Assembly (NCBI GenBank): GCA_902774055.1
Contig: CACYGX010000003.1
Location: 50,702-114,701 of the forward strand
Length of the DNA: 64,000 nt
Reading direction: 5' to 3'
From: an uncultured Bacteroidales bacterium
Lineage (GTDB): Bacteria > Bacteroidota > Bacteroidia > Bacteroidales > Muribaculaceae
Shown piece by piece: positions 58,139-64,000 of the stretch. Numbering within the stretch: the first letter of the stretch is position 1; every line of letters begins with the position of its first letter. Position numbers and translations under genes: made by a program. Under the pieces are notes generated by a model. The model saw only the letters and a program-made list of their open reading frames with translations. It searched no databases and was not told the DNA's origin.

Positions 58139-59542
58139 ATGAACAACAGTAAGTTTTTCAAGGCGATGCGCTGGATGCGCCGCCACAAGAAGTTAATCCT
58201 CTTTGTATTCATCATGATTCTCATCGCTATCCTGGCATCGTGCATCACCGGTGGCGCACCGGGAGCGACACTGGCAGTGGGAATGATCATCACTGGCGTC
58301 GAGGAAGGCAATCACGTTGTTGACGGTCCGCTCACGACCGACCTCGCCCATGAGGGCGCTCCCGACCTGCTGCTCAACGAGATTGACCAGCAGATCGTGA
58401 AAATCCGCCCCATGTCAACGCCCATCGACCAGATTTCGCGATATGCCGGCAGCAAGCACAGCGGCAGCATGGTCGTGGATTACTACAGCGTGGACACCAA
58501 GCCCACAATGGCGCAACTCATCGAGGATATTGAGGAAACCGAGAATCCCAGCGATGAGTCGCCCATGACCGTCATCCACACCAACAACAACGACATCTTT
58601 GACCCGACCGACACCATCCTGGTGCAGAATGTTTCGGGATATGAAAGCGATGGCCAGACCGAGAGCGACCAGGACCTGATGCTCTACGTCATCGGGCGCG
58701 ACGCTAACGGTGTCACCGTCATGGCGGTCAACGGTCCCACGATCAACGGTGTCCCCAACTGCTTCCCCGAGGTAACGAGCGGCTCGACCCTGGTGCGCAT
58801 GGGACGTGCAGCCAGCGAACTCGATGTGCAGTCGCCTCAATTCGAGTCCCTTCCCAAGAAGAACCGCAACCTGTGCCAGATCTTCAAGATGCAGGTCGAG
58901 CAATCCACCCTGCAGCGCCTGGCCAACAAGGAGGTGGGCTGGACCATGAGCGACCAGGAGGAAGCCGCCGTCTATGACATGCGCATGGGTATGGAGAAAT
59001 CCTACCTCTTCGGCGTAGCACGCCAGATGTGGGATCCCATCAAGAAGGAGCACGTCTATTTCACTGGCGGCATCTGGAGCCAGGCCGGCAAGGACTTCGT
59101 GCTGGAGAAGAGTGTGGACCTCACGGTGAGCAAGATGGTGGACCTGATGCGCGAGGCCTGCACGGGCAATTCGGGCAGCAAGCGCAAAATCCTGATCGGT
59201 GGCAGCGGACTCATCAGCCGCATCAGCAAGTTGGACTACACCCGCATTATCACCGCTGGCCAGCATGTGAGTAAATGGGGCATAGATTTCACCGAGTTGC
59301 GAAGTAAATTTGGTTGCCTGTATCTGCTTCTGAGTGAGGTGTTTGACGAGGTAGGCATGGAAGACGAGGGTATCGTCATCGATCCCGAGTATATCCAGAA
59401 GTACACCCACATCCCCTTCAGCACCGAGCAACTCAACCTCAAGAAGAGCGGTGTGCGCAACGTGGACGCACTGGTGATGACCGAGGCTTCGTGTCTGGTA
59501 CTGCGCTACCCCAAGGCACACATGCGCATCACCACCGTATGA
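58139..59542 (+). CDS. Phage major capsid-like protein with an N-terminal membrane-anchor or lipoprotein-like leader
   Basis: This is a 467-residue protein. The capsid part starts around residue 60 (VVDGPLTTDLAHEGAPDLLL, then NEIDQQIVKIRPMSTPIDQI) and runs through VSGYESDG, RMGRAASELD, NRNLCQIFKMQVEQS and KRKILIGGSGLISR, to CLVLRYPKAHMRIT; this is typical of capsid proteins of Bacteroidetes phages and prophages. Unusually, residues 1-18 are basic (MNNSKFFKAMRWMRRHKK), followed by LILFVFIMILIAI and LASC, a perfect lipobox, then ITGGAPGATLAVGMIITG. A cytoplasmic capsid protein should not need that. The stop overlaps the M15 start by four bases (ATGA). Alternative starts inside the leader are possible. 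Confidence 0.72.
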   Translation: MNNSKFFKAMRWMRRHKKLILFVFIMILIAILASCITGGAPGATLAVGMIITGVEEGNHVVDGPLTTDLAHEGAPDLLLNEIDQQIVKIRPMSTPIDQISRYAGSKHSGSMVVDYYSVDTKPTMAQLIEDIEETENPSDESPMTVIHTNNNDIFDPTDTILVQNVSGYESDGQTESDQDLMLYVIGRDANGVTVMAVNGPTINGVPNCFPEVTSGSTLVRMGRAASELDVQSPQFESLPKKNRNLCQIFKMQVEQSTLQRLANKEVGWTMSDQEEAAVYDMRMGMEKSYLFGVARQMWDPIKKEHVYFTGGIWSQAGKDFVLEKSVDLTVSKMVDLMREACTGNSGSKRKILIGGSGLISRISKLDYTRIITAGQHVSKWGIDFTELRSKFGCLYLLLSEVFDEVGMEDEGIVIDPEYIQKYTHIPFSTEQLNLKKSGVRNVDALVMTEASCLVLRYPKAHMRITTV

Positions 59543-59937
59543 GGTACTTCACCATCCCGGAACTCACACGGTCGGCCACCGCGCGGCGACTGGGCATCAA
59601 CAACACGCCACCACCCAGTGCTATCGAGGCGCTCAACCGCCTCGTGGACAACGTGCTCGACCCGCTGCGCGAGGCATGGGGAGGGCCCATCAGGGTCAAT
59701 AGCGGATTTCGGTGCCCAGCGCTGAACAAGGCCGTGGGTGGCACGCCCACCAGCCAGCACCAGTATGGCGAAGCCGCCGACATCACCGTCGGCTCGCGTA
59801 GCGGTAACCGCCGCCTGCTAGCCCTCATCAAGCGATTGGACCTGCCTGTGGACCAATGCATTGACGAGAAAGGCTGCCGCTGGATCCACGTGAGCCACCG
59901 CACGGGCCGCAACCGCCGCATGTACATGAAATTCTAG
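59539..59937 (+). CDS. M15-family peptidase (phage-type endolysin)
   Basis: This 132-residue protein starts at ATG 59539 (MRYFTIPELTRSATARRLGI), overlapping the capsid stop by four bases. Motifs are IRVNSGFRCPALNKAVGGTP, SQHQYGEAADITV (His-x6-Asp of the zinc site) and WIHVSH (third zinc ligand), as in M15A D-Ala-D-Ala peptidases. There is no signal peptide. It would cleave peptidoglycan cross-links, as phage endolysins do at lysis or head assembly. Here it is translationally coupled to the capsid gene rather than to a holin. A hairpin terminator follows at 59974-60052. Confidence 0.88.
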   Translation: MRYFTIPELTRSATARRLGINNTPPPSAIEALNRLVDNVLDPLREAWGGPIRVNSGFRCPALNKAVGGTPTSQHQYGEAADITVGSRSGNRRLLALIKRLDLPVDQCIDEKGCRWIHVSHRTGRNRRMYMKF

Positions 59938-60058: not shown

Positions 60059-61171
60059 TCAGCAATAATGTCTGACGATTTCCAAGACGGCTTGTGAGAC
60101 GCGCTGCAGGGTGCCATCAGGGTCCATCGCCACTTCTATAGGCAATCCGTCACTAACAGCTACAGCCTGTGAAACACCTGACCCCGCGGAGTCAAAATCG
60201 GATGATATCGTGCCGCAAACGGCCGCCACAGGGATGCCTCGTTCGCGGGCCATCGAGATGACGAAACCGGGACCCTTGCCCATCAGCGTCTGGCCGTCAA
60301 GCCGCCCCTCGCCAGTAATGACAAGGTCGGCGCCGTCGAGTGCCTCGCTCATGCCGTTACGGGCAAACACATAAGGGGCGCCTGGCTTCAATTCACAATC
60401 GAGAAGATGCATCATCAGGGCCGGAATGCCGCCAGCAGCCCCACAACCCGGGCAGCAGGCGATATCCTCGCCCACCAGGGCGGCAATATTCTCCATGCCG
60501 TGCTCCAGTTCCTCGACCTGTTGTGGAGAAGCACCTTTTTGTGGGGCAAAAATGCGCGCCGAGCCGTTATCGCCACACAAGGGGTTATCGACATCGGTCA
60601 GGAGGGTGTAACGGCAATCGCGGATGGATTGAGGAATGCCTAGGGTCTCGATACGGGCGATTTTCTCAAGGGACTCACCGCTGGGATACAAATGATGCCC
60701 GTCTTTGTCCAGGAATTCAGCACCCAGGGCACACAGGATGCCCATCGCCGCGTCGCATGTCGCCGAGCCGCCCAGCCCCAGCACGATGTGAGTAGCGCCA
60801 CGCTCCATGGCATCACGCATCAGCAAACCCGTGCCCAAGGTTGACGCACGCATCACGTCGCGCACGTCATCGGGCAACAACGCCAGTCCACTGGCTGCAG
60901 CGACCTCGATGAGCGCGGTGCCGTCATCACACAGGTAATACTGCGCCATGACTGGGGCCATCTGCAATAGGGGTCCCATCGTGGGCGACGTCACCAATTG
61001 TCCCTGGCAAAAAGACGCCAGCACGGCCGTAGTGCCATCACCACCGTCGGCGACAGGCACACACACGACATCCAGCCCCTCAAGTGCGTTCAGGGCTTGC
61101 CGCGCGGCATGATTAAGTTGCTGGGATGTTGCCGAGCCTTTGAATTTATCAAACGCCAGGACAACCTTCAT
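60059..61171 (-). CDS. Glycerate kinase
   Basis: This protein is about 370 residues from ATG 61171 (MKVVLAFDKFKGSATSQQLN), whose first base overlaps the stop of the upstream gene (TGATG); a GTG at 61174 was rejected. Family motifs include PVADGGDGTTAVL, EVAAASGLALL, GLGGSATCDAAMGIL, VDNPLCGDNGSARIF, PGCGAAGGIPA and VITGEGRLDGQTL. It phosphorylates glycerate with ATP to 2- (or 3-) phosphoglycerate. The upstream coiled-coil lipoprotein gene overlaps by one base, and rsmI lies before that, so these form a mixed operon. Confidence 0.93.
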   Translation of the reverse strand: MKVVLAFDKFKGSATSQQLNHAARQALNALEGLDVVCVPVADGGDGTTAVLASFCQGQLVTSPTMGPLLQMAPVMAQYYLCDDGTALIEVAAASGLALLPDDVRDVMRASTLGTGLLMRDAMERGATHIVLGLGGSATCDAAMGILCALGAEFLDKDGHHLYPSGESLEKIARIETLGIPQSIRDCRYTLLTDVDNPLCGDNGSARIFAPQKGASPQQVEELEHGMENIAALVGEDIACCPGCGAAGGIPALMMHLLDCELKPGAPYVFARNGMSEALDGADLVITGEGRLDGQTLMGKGPGFVISMARERGIPVAAVCGTISSDFDSAGSGVSQAVAVSDGLPIEVAMDPDGTLQRVSQAVLEIVRHYC

Positions 61172-62058
61172 CACTCAACCTTCACAACAAGGAAATTGGA
61201 TTTTTCCCAGAAACGGGTCGTATTCAAGATGCGCAACGTCTTTAGATTGCCCTGATCAACAATCTCGTAGGAATCCTTGGGGTGGTTGGTCATGAGTTCG
61301 GCTTTCTTGCTGTGCAGGGGTATCTCGTTGAGAATGCGGCGGTCGGCCTTGGTAAAATAGGACATCTCGTAGTCACCCTGCAGAATTGTGGTCTTGCGCA
61401 GGAAACCGCTCTCCATGATTTTGTGGGCCTTGAGTTCCTTCTTGGAGCCGATGACATAGTAGCAGGTATTCAGGTTGGTGACCTCGTTGGTGAGTTGTTT
61501 GGCTTCTTCTTGAGCCACCTCTTTCTCCCGCGTCACAGCCTGGTTGACCGTGTTCAACGAGTCCACACTCTGGTTGAGGTTCTGAATCTGGATATGGGCT
61601 GCCGCCAGTTGGTCGGTCAGGTTGTCGATAGTCTTCTGCTGGTCTTCTAGCTGACGCTTGAGGTTCTCGATCGACCGCTGCATGGAGCTGTTCAAGTTGG
61701 AGGACTGCTTGAGCCTCTTTTCCAGTTCGGCAAGGCGGGTCTTGTGCTTGTTGATGGATTGCTGGATGAGGACAATATCGTCGCGCAGTTGCTTCTTGCG
61801 GTCGGGGGTCTCTCCATTCAAGTTATTGACCGATACAATGTCCTCTAGCTCCTTGATTTGCTGCATGCCGTCGGCAATGTCACTCATGAGTTGCATGAGG
61901 CTGTCTTTTTCGGCATTAGCAGTATTGATGGAATCCTGCAACACGGCATTGATGGAGTCTTGGCGCATGGCCTCGGCCTCCAGATTATTGCTGCGCTGGC
62001 AAGCGGGCAGCACTGCTAACCCGACCATCAACCCAACTAAATACATTATCTTTTTCAT
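61171..62058 (-). CDS. Coiled-coil lipoprotein
   Basis: This 295-residue protein has a lipoprotein signal (MKKIMYLVGLMVGLAVLPAC, Cys at 20). A long coiled coil (residues about 70-200; RKKQLRDDIVLIQQSINKHK, LAELEKRLKQSSNLN, NLKRQLEDQQKTIDNLTDQL) is followed by a C-terminal globular part (CYYVIGSKKELKAHKIMES, GDYEMSYFTKADRRILNEIP). It is probably a periplasmic or outer-membrane-attached structural protein. The family occurs across Bacteroidales, but its function is unknown to me. It lies 18 bases after rsmI and overlaps the glycerate kinase start by one base. Confidence 0.75.
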   Translation of the reverse strand: MKKIMYLVGLMVGLAVLPACQRSNNLEAEAMRQDSINAVLQDSINTANAEKDSLMQLMSDIADGMQQIKELEDIVSVNNLNGETPDRKKQLRDDIVLIQQSINKHKTRLAELEKRLKQSSNLNSSMQRSIENLKRQLEDQQKTIDNLTDQLAAAHIQIQNLNQSVDSLNTVNQAVTREKEVAQEEAKQLTNEVTNLNTCYYVIGSKKELKAHKIMESGFLRKTTILQGDYEMSYFTKADRRILNEIPLHSKKAELMTNHPKDSYEIVDQGNLKTLRILNTTRFWEKSNFLVVKVE

Positions 62059-62076
62059 AACTTATTGATATTATAG

Positions 62077-62811
62077 TCAAACTTTAGCATTCTTTTGTTT
62101 AAATGCGGCATACTTGTCCACCTTGACGGCTGCCTGCTGGGGGCAACCAGCCACGACGATCACAATCTCACCACGCGGAGCGTTGACTGTGAAATGTTGA
62201 ACCAGTTCGCCCAGGGTGCCGTTGTGCGTCGTGTTGTGCAGTTTGCTGATTTCCCTCACCACACTGGCCTCACGTTCGGCCCCAAAGGTCTCGACGAACT
62301 GTTCCAGGGTCTTCAACAACCTCATGGGCGACTCATAGAAGACCATGGTCAACGGCTGGCTCTTTAACTCTTCGAGGCGGGTGGCGCGACCTTTCTTCGG
62401 CGGCAGGAAGCCCTCGAAGACAAAGCGGTCACAGGGCAGCCCCGAATTGACCAGAGCGGGGACAAAAGCGGTCGCTCCAGGGAGCGTCTCGACCTCGATA
62501 CCTTGTCGGCGGCATTCACGCGAGAGCAAGAAACCCGGGTCGCTGATGCCTGGTGTTCCAGCATCGCTGATGAGTGCCATGACCTCTCCTGCCTTCAGAT
62601 GCTCGACCACTGCTGCAACGGCCTCGTGCTCGTTGAACTTGTGGTGGCTGCGCATGGGCGTGGTAATGTCAAAGTGCTTGAGCAGCACGCCACTGGTGCG
62701 GGTATCCTCGGCAAGGATGGTATCCACGCCCTTGAGCACTTCGATGGCACGAGGTGTCATGTCGGCGAGGTTCCCCACTGGGGTTGGCACTATGTAGAGT
62801 TTACCAGCCAT
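62077..62811 (-). CDS. rsmI: 16S rRNA (cytidine1402-2'-O)-methyltransferase
   Basis: This 244-residue protein begins MAGKLYIVPTPVGNLADMTP and has LAEDTRTSGVLLKHF, SDAGTPGISDPGFLL (SAM-binding), VETLPGATAFVPALVNSGLP and FEGFLPPKKGRATRLEEL, all hallmarks of RsmI. It 2'-O-methylates C1402 in 16S rRNA for decoding fidelity. The reading is standard length. It follows the acidic protein by 21 bases and precedes the lipoprotein by 18. Confidence 0.95.
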   Translation of the reverse strand: MAGKLYIVPTPVGNLADMTPRAIEVLKGVDTILAEDTRTSGVLLKHFDITTPMRSHHKFNEHEAVAAVVEHLKAGEVMALISDAGTPGISDPGFLLSRECRRQGIEVETLPGATAFVPALVNSGLPCDRFVFEGFLPPKKGRATRLEELKSQPLTMVFYESPMRLLKTLEQFVETFGAEREASVVREISKLHNTTHNGTLGELVQHFTVNAPRGEIVIVVAGCPQQAAVKVDKYAAFKQKNAKV

Positions 62812-62832: not shown

Positions 62833-63798
62833 TCACTGGAAATGGTTGCGAACGATAGTCATGAAGTCCTTCACCACCTCGTTCTCACGGTCCCAGTTTA
62901 ATTGGCTATAGAAATACAACTCGGCGTTGCCATAGGTGCGCATCACCTCGATATGCTCAATGGCGGTATTCATCGCACTGGCGCTACCGGCAAACAACTC
63001 GCGCTGGAAACGGAAGCGGTCATTGACCGAAAAGGCTTTGCGGATATCCTTCGACAGGCTGCGCTGCACCTTCTGGTCCACACGCAGGGGCTCCTCCTCA
63101 GGTTCGGGGAACTCGGTGGGGACAGGGGGAACGGGCATTTCGTCTTCGGGCTCGGGAACGGCCTCATCATCGGCCTCGATGAACTCGACAGTGATATCTG
63201 GCTCGTCATCGGCCTCGGGCAACAAATTGGGATCGGGCTCGGGAACAGGTTCGTCATTCACATCGTCGGGGCCGCGGAAAACGGGCGGCTGCGGTGTTTC
63301 GCGCACGGGTTCCTCAACGGGCTCAGGCTTGACCTCGGGTTCGGGCTCGGATTCATCCTCGGCCTCGGGTTCATCCTCGGCCTCGATAAACTCGACGGTA
63401 ATGTCCTCGTCGGGCTCACGGTCGGCAACGGGCACCTCATGCTTGGGTTCCTCGTAATCCAGCGAGAAGACTTCCTTAAACTCCTCGCCATTGTCGTGCT
63501 GCCAGGTCTCGTCAGCATCATAGTCGTCGCTGGGCAGGCCCGTGTCCTCCTCTTCGGGTTCGGGCTGTTGCTCCTCGACAGTGGGTGCTGGCTCCGGTGC
63601 GGGTTCGGGTGCGGCCACGGGCTCGGGGGTCGGCTGTGTCAGTTCCACGCCACACATTTCGGCCAACTCACGCACCTTGCGCTTAATTTTATTGGTAATG
63701 ACATCGGGCGTATTCTCATCACCCAACCTGCGGGTAACGAGCATCAGTCCTTCAATCTCATAGACATGAGACAGCATTTTCTCTATCGACATGTTCAT
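62833..63798 (-). CDS. Acidic Pro/Glu-rich protein with folded ends
   Basis: This 321-residue protein has a folded N-terminus (MSIEKMLSHVYEIEGLMLVT, residues about 1-55). A long low-complexity middle is made of PEPE and EDEP-type repeats, including the twice-used ITVEFIEA. The C-terminal domain (VQRSLSKDIRKAFSVNDRFR, then FQRELFAGSASAMNTAIEHI, residues about 240-320) is well ordered. There is no signal peptide or membrane segment. The middle probably acts as a flexible spacer. I do not know the activity. A candidate promoter (TTG, 19 bases, TAAACTTG) lies at 63890-63861. It heads the rsmI operon. Confidence 0.7.
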   Translation of the reverse strand: MNMSIEKMLSHVYEIEGLMLVTRRLGDENTPDVITNKIKRKVRELAEMCGVELTQPTPEPVAAPEPAPEPAPTVEEQQPEPEEEDTGLPSDDYDADETWQHDNGEEFKEVFSLDYEEPKHEVPVADREPDEDITVEFIEAEDEPEAEDESEPEPEVKPEPVEEPVRETPQPPVFRGPDDVNDEPVPEPDPNLLPEADDEPDITVEFIEADDEAVPEPEDEMPVPPVPTEFPEPEEEPLRVDQKVQRSLSKDIRKAFSVNDRFRFQRELFAGSASAMNTAIEHIEVMRTYGNAELYFYSQLNWDRENEVVKDFMTIVRNHFQ

Positions 63799-63892
63799 AA
63801 TAGTCTGTTACATTGTTGCTTAGCGACACTTCGCCAAGGATTTGTCTTACATTTAACCTGCAAGTTTAGGCATTTTTTTTGAAACACCAATA

Positions 63893-64000
63893 ATTTTATT
63901 GAAAAATAGTGCCAGTCGAACACAAAACAAATCGATTTTGTTTTGTTGAGACGCAGCCTATTTTATCCAAAAATAGTGCCAGTCGAACACAAAACAAATC
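63893..64000. repeat. 67-bp-period direct repeat cut by the right edge
   Basis: The 32-base sequence starting AAAAATAGTGCCAGTCGAAC and ending CAAAACAAATC occurs at 63902-63933 and 63969-64000. Similarity extends about nine bases to the left with two differences (ATTTTATTG against ATTTTATCC). ACAAAACAAA-TCGAT-TTTGTTTTGT forms a perfect 10-bp hairpin behind the first copy. The array may continue outside the window. Confidence 0.85.

Follow-up and report, generated by a model that had tools for sequence, protein, structure and literature searches.

An uncatalogued single-copy protein family with a conserved C-terminal domain in most sampled Bacteroidota

The gene described here, which we call X, is a member of an uncatalogued protein family that most sampled Bacteroidota genomes carry in single copy. 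It lies in a window of 64,000 nucleotides, the whole stretch of DNA analysed, from an uncultured Bacteroidales bacterium, and its features are collected in Table 1. Individual members are presumably already in databases as hypothetical proteins; the new point is that, in most sampled Bacteroidota, these members make up a single family, present once per genome, whose C-terminal domain can be defined and which corresponds to no curated family and to no significant fold match.

The family and its spread

Searched as a single sequence, the last 75 residues of X matched 41 of 296 sampled Bacteroidota genomes. A 29-member profile reached 131 of 198 genomes, and the 51-member profile A2 reached 149 of 198, in 95 of 103 genera. 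Every one of the 149 matching genomes has exactly one A2 match, as has the window's own. By our listing, the A2 matches comprise 49 genomes of the window's class (its own included), all of which carry the C-terminal domain, and 100 elsewhere in the phylum. A2 missed 49 genomes; among the 20 listed, 19 come from one family (f42), one from another (f41) and none from the window's class, the further 29 not being among those listed. The full-length profile A3 matched in none of ten listed misses (nine f42, one f41), in a search run without a positive control. With the whole window protein as a single query, matches were obtained in 34 of 37 genomes of the genus (own included) and in 11 of 24 others of the order; the three genus genomes without a match are 74-83% complete. 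All presence searches were made within Bacteroidota genomes, and these counts do not thereby make the family phylum-specific.

Signature proteins of Bacteroidetes, many of them of unknown function, were reported as restricted to the group by Gupta and Lorenzini (2007; PMC1887533), who used BLASTP on single ORFs. X differs from the proteins presented there in that its wide spread needed a profile (A2) and was seen only in part with a single sequence. Two inferred locus tags and the words "thymidine kinase" are absent from the text of that article, and we were unable to match X with a listed tag. Three open-licence papers are listed as mentioning BT_2275 together with tdk. Among such papers we found none with BT_2274 or BT_2276, tags guessed as neighbours of BT_2275, and there may be print beyond these; a search of the open-licence literature combining Bacteroidetes, rsmI and thymidine kinase with two further terms likewise found no paper, which is not proof of nothing in print.

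Residues 254-320 of the 321 in the window protein match the iterated C-terminal profile with an E-value of 6e-25, partly by construction, as that profile was seeded with the window sequence; membership of the window gene is supported beyond this seed effect by the matches in distant genomes. In all 125 fetched loci the domain terminates the protein, with at most ten residues beyond it, a count that speaks to the position of the domain and not to its presence, since the loci were fetched because they matched. The 125 loci represent 121 genomes, L082, L084, L087 and L089 being second fetches; the second fetches L062-L077 are not counted.

The rest of the protein is less uniform. The N-terminal part of the window protein is predicted to be a short hairpin and that of Bacteroides is of similar length; in part of the window's class and outside the class it spans about 200 residues. 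An N-terminal profile, A5, matched the family gene in nine of 12 genomes; the three in which it failed to do so are the three Bacteroidales genomes tried, among them that of the window, so that judged by sequence the N-terminal parts are too divergent across the family for one profile. We also asked whether the hairpin is a known module used elsewhere and dropped the idea: apart from the family gene, A5 gave only matches at E 0.03-0.07. The sequences in each set (51 for A2, 31 for A3, 26 for A5) were chosen by us from the fetched loci.

The sequence-only reading had taken the C-terminal domain to be conserved, without recognising it, and had considered that a clear match to a known family would tell against its account. 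The conservation is borne out by the A2 matches across the phylum and by the low pN/pS of the domain (Table 1), and no clear match emerged from Pfam, NCBIfam or a PDB fold search. Nothing above any curated cut-off was obtained from Pfam and NCBIfam for 11 members, i.e., the window protein and ten diverse relatives, and Foldseek searches of two models against the PDB returned 2 and 53 hits at E <=10 and none at E <=0.001. Sequence searches of the PDB with profiles A1 and A2 brought up PPR and other repeat proteins through summed scores, and a few weak hits.

It is very improbable, in our view, that the C-terminal domain is an RNA-binding helical unit of the PPR kind. A1 and A2 both pick up PPR proteins, the majority of them designed, with best E-values of 4.5e-5 and 5.1e-20 respectively, and the helix-turn-helix sequence pattern is similar. 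However, these scores are sums over many repeats, and none of the PPR chains has a stretch that passes by itself; moreover, the Pfam PPR family is seen in none of the 11 members, Foldseek gave no significant match, and X has a single such hairpin instead of an array of repeats of about 35 residues. Because its hits are summed over repeats and come without Pfam or fold support, this is the weakest case among the alternatives considered.

Predicted folded ends, acidic linker and constrained islands

Table 1. Features of X and of the genes that follow it (positions in the window)
Feature	Position	Strand	Basis
Family gene X, 321 aa	62833..63798	-	ORF list; pN/pS 0.25; family profile
N-terminal helical hairpin (predicted), residues 1-52	63643..63798	-	AlphaFold2 helices 5-25 and 32-49; block pLDDT 68-83; pN/pS 0.13
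Acidic Pro-rich linker, residues 53-245	63064..63642	-	109 of 193 residues D, E or P; block pLDDT 42-63; no predicted secondary structure
Linker island 1, residues 88-118 (LPSDDYDADETWQHDNGEEFKEVFSLDYEEP)	63445..63537	-	pN/pS 0.11
Linker island 2, residues 122-140, includes first ITVEFIEA	63379..63435	-	pN/pS 0.12; occupancy 0.80
Linker island 3, residues 182-234, includes second ITVEFIEA	63097..63255	-	pN/pS 0.22; occupancy 0.99
C-terminal family domain, residues 245-321, core about 252-320	62836..63066	-	terminal profile match in 125 of 125 loci; pLDDT 84-95 from residue 251; pN/pS 0.13
rsmI, 16S rRNA (cytidine(1402)-2'-O)-methyltransferase	62077..62811	-	TIGR00096, 232.8 bits (cut-off 167.9)
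Cbp1-family protein, third gene of putative operon	61171..62058	-	NF052320, 215.6 bits (cut-off 90)
Glycerate kinase gene, fourth gene of putative operon	60059..61174	-	TIGR00045, 328.2 bits (cut-off 168.45); PF02595

X is a genuine protein-coding gene. Its reading frame is intact and opens with ATG, and the product is acidic (calculated pI 3.8) and soluble-looking. Selection was measured over 17 of the 29 genus loci, those closest to the window (L002-L018 of L002-L030, the window's own included), where substitutions at codon positions 1, 2 and 3 of the X frame number 7495, 5882 and 18969 and the whole-gene pN/pS is 0.25. A 326-residue ORF antisense to X (62902-63882, plus strand, TTG start) was considered and is unsupported, since both the substitution counts and the pN/pS fit the minus-strand frame; it probably arises as a side effect of codon bias on the strand that encodes X.

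In Bacteroides faecichinchillae JCM 17102 (L157:3278-4276) the X frame loses the family end inside the C-terminal domain, and this copy looks either disrupted or wrongly sequenced. Its ORF being without the family domain at the end, it was left out of alignment A4, which holds 14 of the 15 Bacteroides loci.

The sequence-only reading described folded ends joined by a spacer rich in proline, glutamate and aspartate and proposed structure prediction as a check. AlphaFold2, given the window protein and 14 relatives from Bacteroides, agrees with that description: it predicts helical ends with an unstructured linker between them. The linker has 23 D, 47 E and 39 P against 4 K and 4 R, and no helix is predicted within residues 50-251. 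The C-terminal domain, about 70 residues with pLDDT around 90, is modelled as helices at 252-255, 258-268, 273-285, 289-299 and 307-320 (mean pLDDT per ten residues 84-95), and a separate earlier model of this end alone gave the same helix order with lower confidence. The overall pTM is 0.30, and for this reason we claim no packing or contact between the two ends.

The linker is not uniformly free to change. Across the same 17 loci, two spacers within it have pN/pS of 0.73 and 0.56, much freer than the three islands or the ends, and purifying selection on the islands is about as strong as on the N-terminal 52 residues and the C-terminal domain. Island 1 is present in 16 of the 17 close loci (missing from L017), and DYDADETWQHDNGEEF with its surroundings is recognisable in the distant genus members L019-L022 and L024-L026; it thus reaches further among relatives than the ITVEFIEA motif does.

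ITVEFIEA, already picked out in the sequence-only reading as a repeated motif, occurs at residues 133-140 and 202-209, as part of an exact nine-residue repeat (DITVEFIEA) in two copies; an equally long exact repeat arose in 1 of 2000 shuffles of the linker. Both copies are kept in 12 of the 17 closest loci (own included), the first being missing from L014, L016, L017 and L018 and the second degenerate in L013. Of the nucleotide differences between the two copies, 35 of 38 fall at third positions, which indicates that the repeat is conserved as protein sequence. In the set of family ORFs that was scanned, the motif is confined to L002-L018 and a repeat fetch of the window gene.

A composition of this kind invites comparison with the RNA polymerase delta subunit of Bacillota, a small soluble protein in which an acidic disordered tract is attached to a small folded domain. 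X is likewise small and soluble-looking, with an acidic disordered tract next to a folded domain; it differs in having two folded ends where delta has one, in belonging to another phylum and in giving no profile match. X could by this analogy be a charge-based regulator of a nucleic-acid machine, its acidic linker mimicking nucleic acid and competing for a basic surface while the ends position it. We think this unlikely. Of 125 members, 122 have a net negative charge, and the distribution is that of a core gene, as such a regulator would have it; but the delta-subunit family is absent from the Pfam and NCBIfam hits of the 11 members, the acidic tract sits between two domains and not at the C-terminus, and the net charge is above zero in three of the 125 members.

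Gene neighbourhood

X was initially described as heading the rsmI operon. The spacing fits this: X is followed after 21 nt by rsmI, then after 18 nt by the Cbp1-family gene, which overlaps the glycerate kinase gene by 4 nt. A dacB-like gene, so called because its L031 homologue matches Peptidase_S13, lies on the same strand 349 nt upstream of X, so that a longer transcript is conceivable.

Several features of this region were noticed in passing. The NCBIfam name of the Cbp1-family gene is collagen-binding glycoprotein adhesin. At the glycerate kinase end the operon is adjoined by phage-like genes, for an SU10-type major capsid protein (58139-59542, plus strand) and a peptidase M15 (59491-59937, plus strand). 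The distance from the dacB-like gene to X, 349 nt in this genome, is 56-225 nt in 24 of the 25 genus relatives in which a dacB-like gene was found. The gap contains direct repeats (window 63880-64000, continuing upstream beyond the window), the first two spaced 67 nt and each including an AT-rich palindrome (ACAAAACAAATCGATTTTGTTTTGT). The 31-base core of these repeats has three copies genome-wide, all between the dacB-like gene and X.

In the tallies that follow, a neighbour is a homologue anywhere in the fetched stretch, which for many loci of the class has a flank of only 1.5 kb. All 29 loci of the window's genus have rsmI next to X and none has tdk near it; in 26 of them the dacB-like gene lies upstream of X. 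Among the 51 loci of the rest of the class, tdk is near X in 42 and rsmI in 17, with both in 13, at least one in 46 and neither in five. Bacteroides combines the two sides, rsmI following X in 15 of 15 loci and tdk being divergent from it in 14. Set against the order divergent tdk, X, rsmI of the class, the window has the rsmI side and no tdk near X; the order that is shared supports treating the window gene as an orthologue, even though identity is low. None of 40 loci from outside the class has rsmI or tdk near X. There, a carboxyltransferase gene is found in 12, an SLT/LysM gene in eight, an ABC-type ATPase gene in seven and an SbcC-like ATPase gene in four; several of these neighbours are one gene away from X, and L083, a fifth SbcC-like case, is not in the count. 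In L083, L094, L095, L107 and L108, all of one out-of-class group, the SbcC-like gene begins 9-39 nt downstream of X.

A joint role of X and RsmI in 16S rRNA methylation or 30S maturation, which adjacency throughout the genus, in 17 of 51 other class loci and in all Bacteroides loci might suggest, seems to us highly unlikely. In the rest of the class tdk is the commoner neighbour, the 40 out-of-class loci have neither gene near X, and E. coli K-12 has rsmI and, to our knowledge, no X. Proximity to rsmI is a feature of only part of the class and tells little about what X does. We also consider it quite unlikely that X is a scaffold of cell division or of the envelope, a linker protein that would recruit a cytosolic component to a site. 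In favour of this are the dacB-like gene upstream in the genus and, convergent with X, an FtsW/RodA-type gene in L048 and a kdo-transferase gene in L032; on the other hand, the sequence of the window protein shows no membrane segment, the neighbours in question are lineage-specific, and the ZapA/ZapB hits of L032 are far under the curated cut-offs. We rejected the neighbours as a guide to function, since no common theme runs across lineages: gene context supports the ancestry of X, not a pathway.

Proposed role and meaning

We tentatively favour, at a little under even chances, the reading of X as a member of a core family that acts as a soluble cytoplasmic tether. Its C-terminal helical domain, the sole element recognisable family-wide, would dock on a conserved partner; its N-terminal end, likewise helical and ranging from the hairpin seen here to about 200 residues in some lineages, would either self-pair or hold a second partner; and the long acidic linker, extended through like-charge repulsion, would keep the ends apart and, in the window's genus, carry short docking motifs as islands 1-3. 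Islands at pN/pS 0.11-0.22 separated by freer spacers (0.56 and 0.73) are the pattern expected of docking motifs in a linker. A cytoplasmic location is suggested by inspection of the protein, in which no hydrophobic or signal-like stretch was seen; that either end binds a partner, and that X serves as a tether at all, we infer from the layout. The sequence-only reading had wondered about an adaptor, which is plausible in that it fits the predicted folded-disordered-folded arrangement.

For the tether we count this arrangement, the terminal position of the domain (125 of 125), the single copy (149 of 149) and the negative charge (122 of 125). Against it, D, E and P together make up more than 30% of the final stretch of linker (120 residues or fewer) in only 76 of 125 members, ITVEFIEA was seen only in the 17 closest loci, the N-terminal parts are divergent, the neighbours differ between lineages and the pTM is low. 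A further proposal, possible though on balance unlikely, is that X is a phylum-specific, near-universal and single-copy component of a core machine, be it of transcription, translation, replication or division. Such a component would have been overlooked so far because only a tail of 70 residues is recognisable across lineages.

Common strains for Bacteroides genetics carry a deletion of the thymidine kinase gene. Given that tdk is divergent from X in 14 of the 15 Bacteroides loci, a sample outside which B. thetaiotaomicron falls, tdk deletions in Bacteroides would adjoin the 5' end of X.

A widely conserved protein of unknown function within one phylum is a known kind of thing. Being single-copy in 149 of 198 genomes and having no Pfam or NCBIfam model, X is a clear target for biology particular to the phylum, and its interest would rise if a core partner were found. 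If X does prove to be a core component, a supposedly standard machine would have, in one phylum, an additional subunit or tether that has gone unrecognised.
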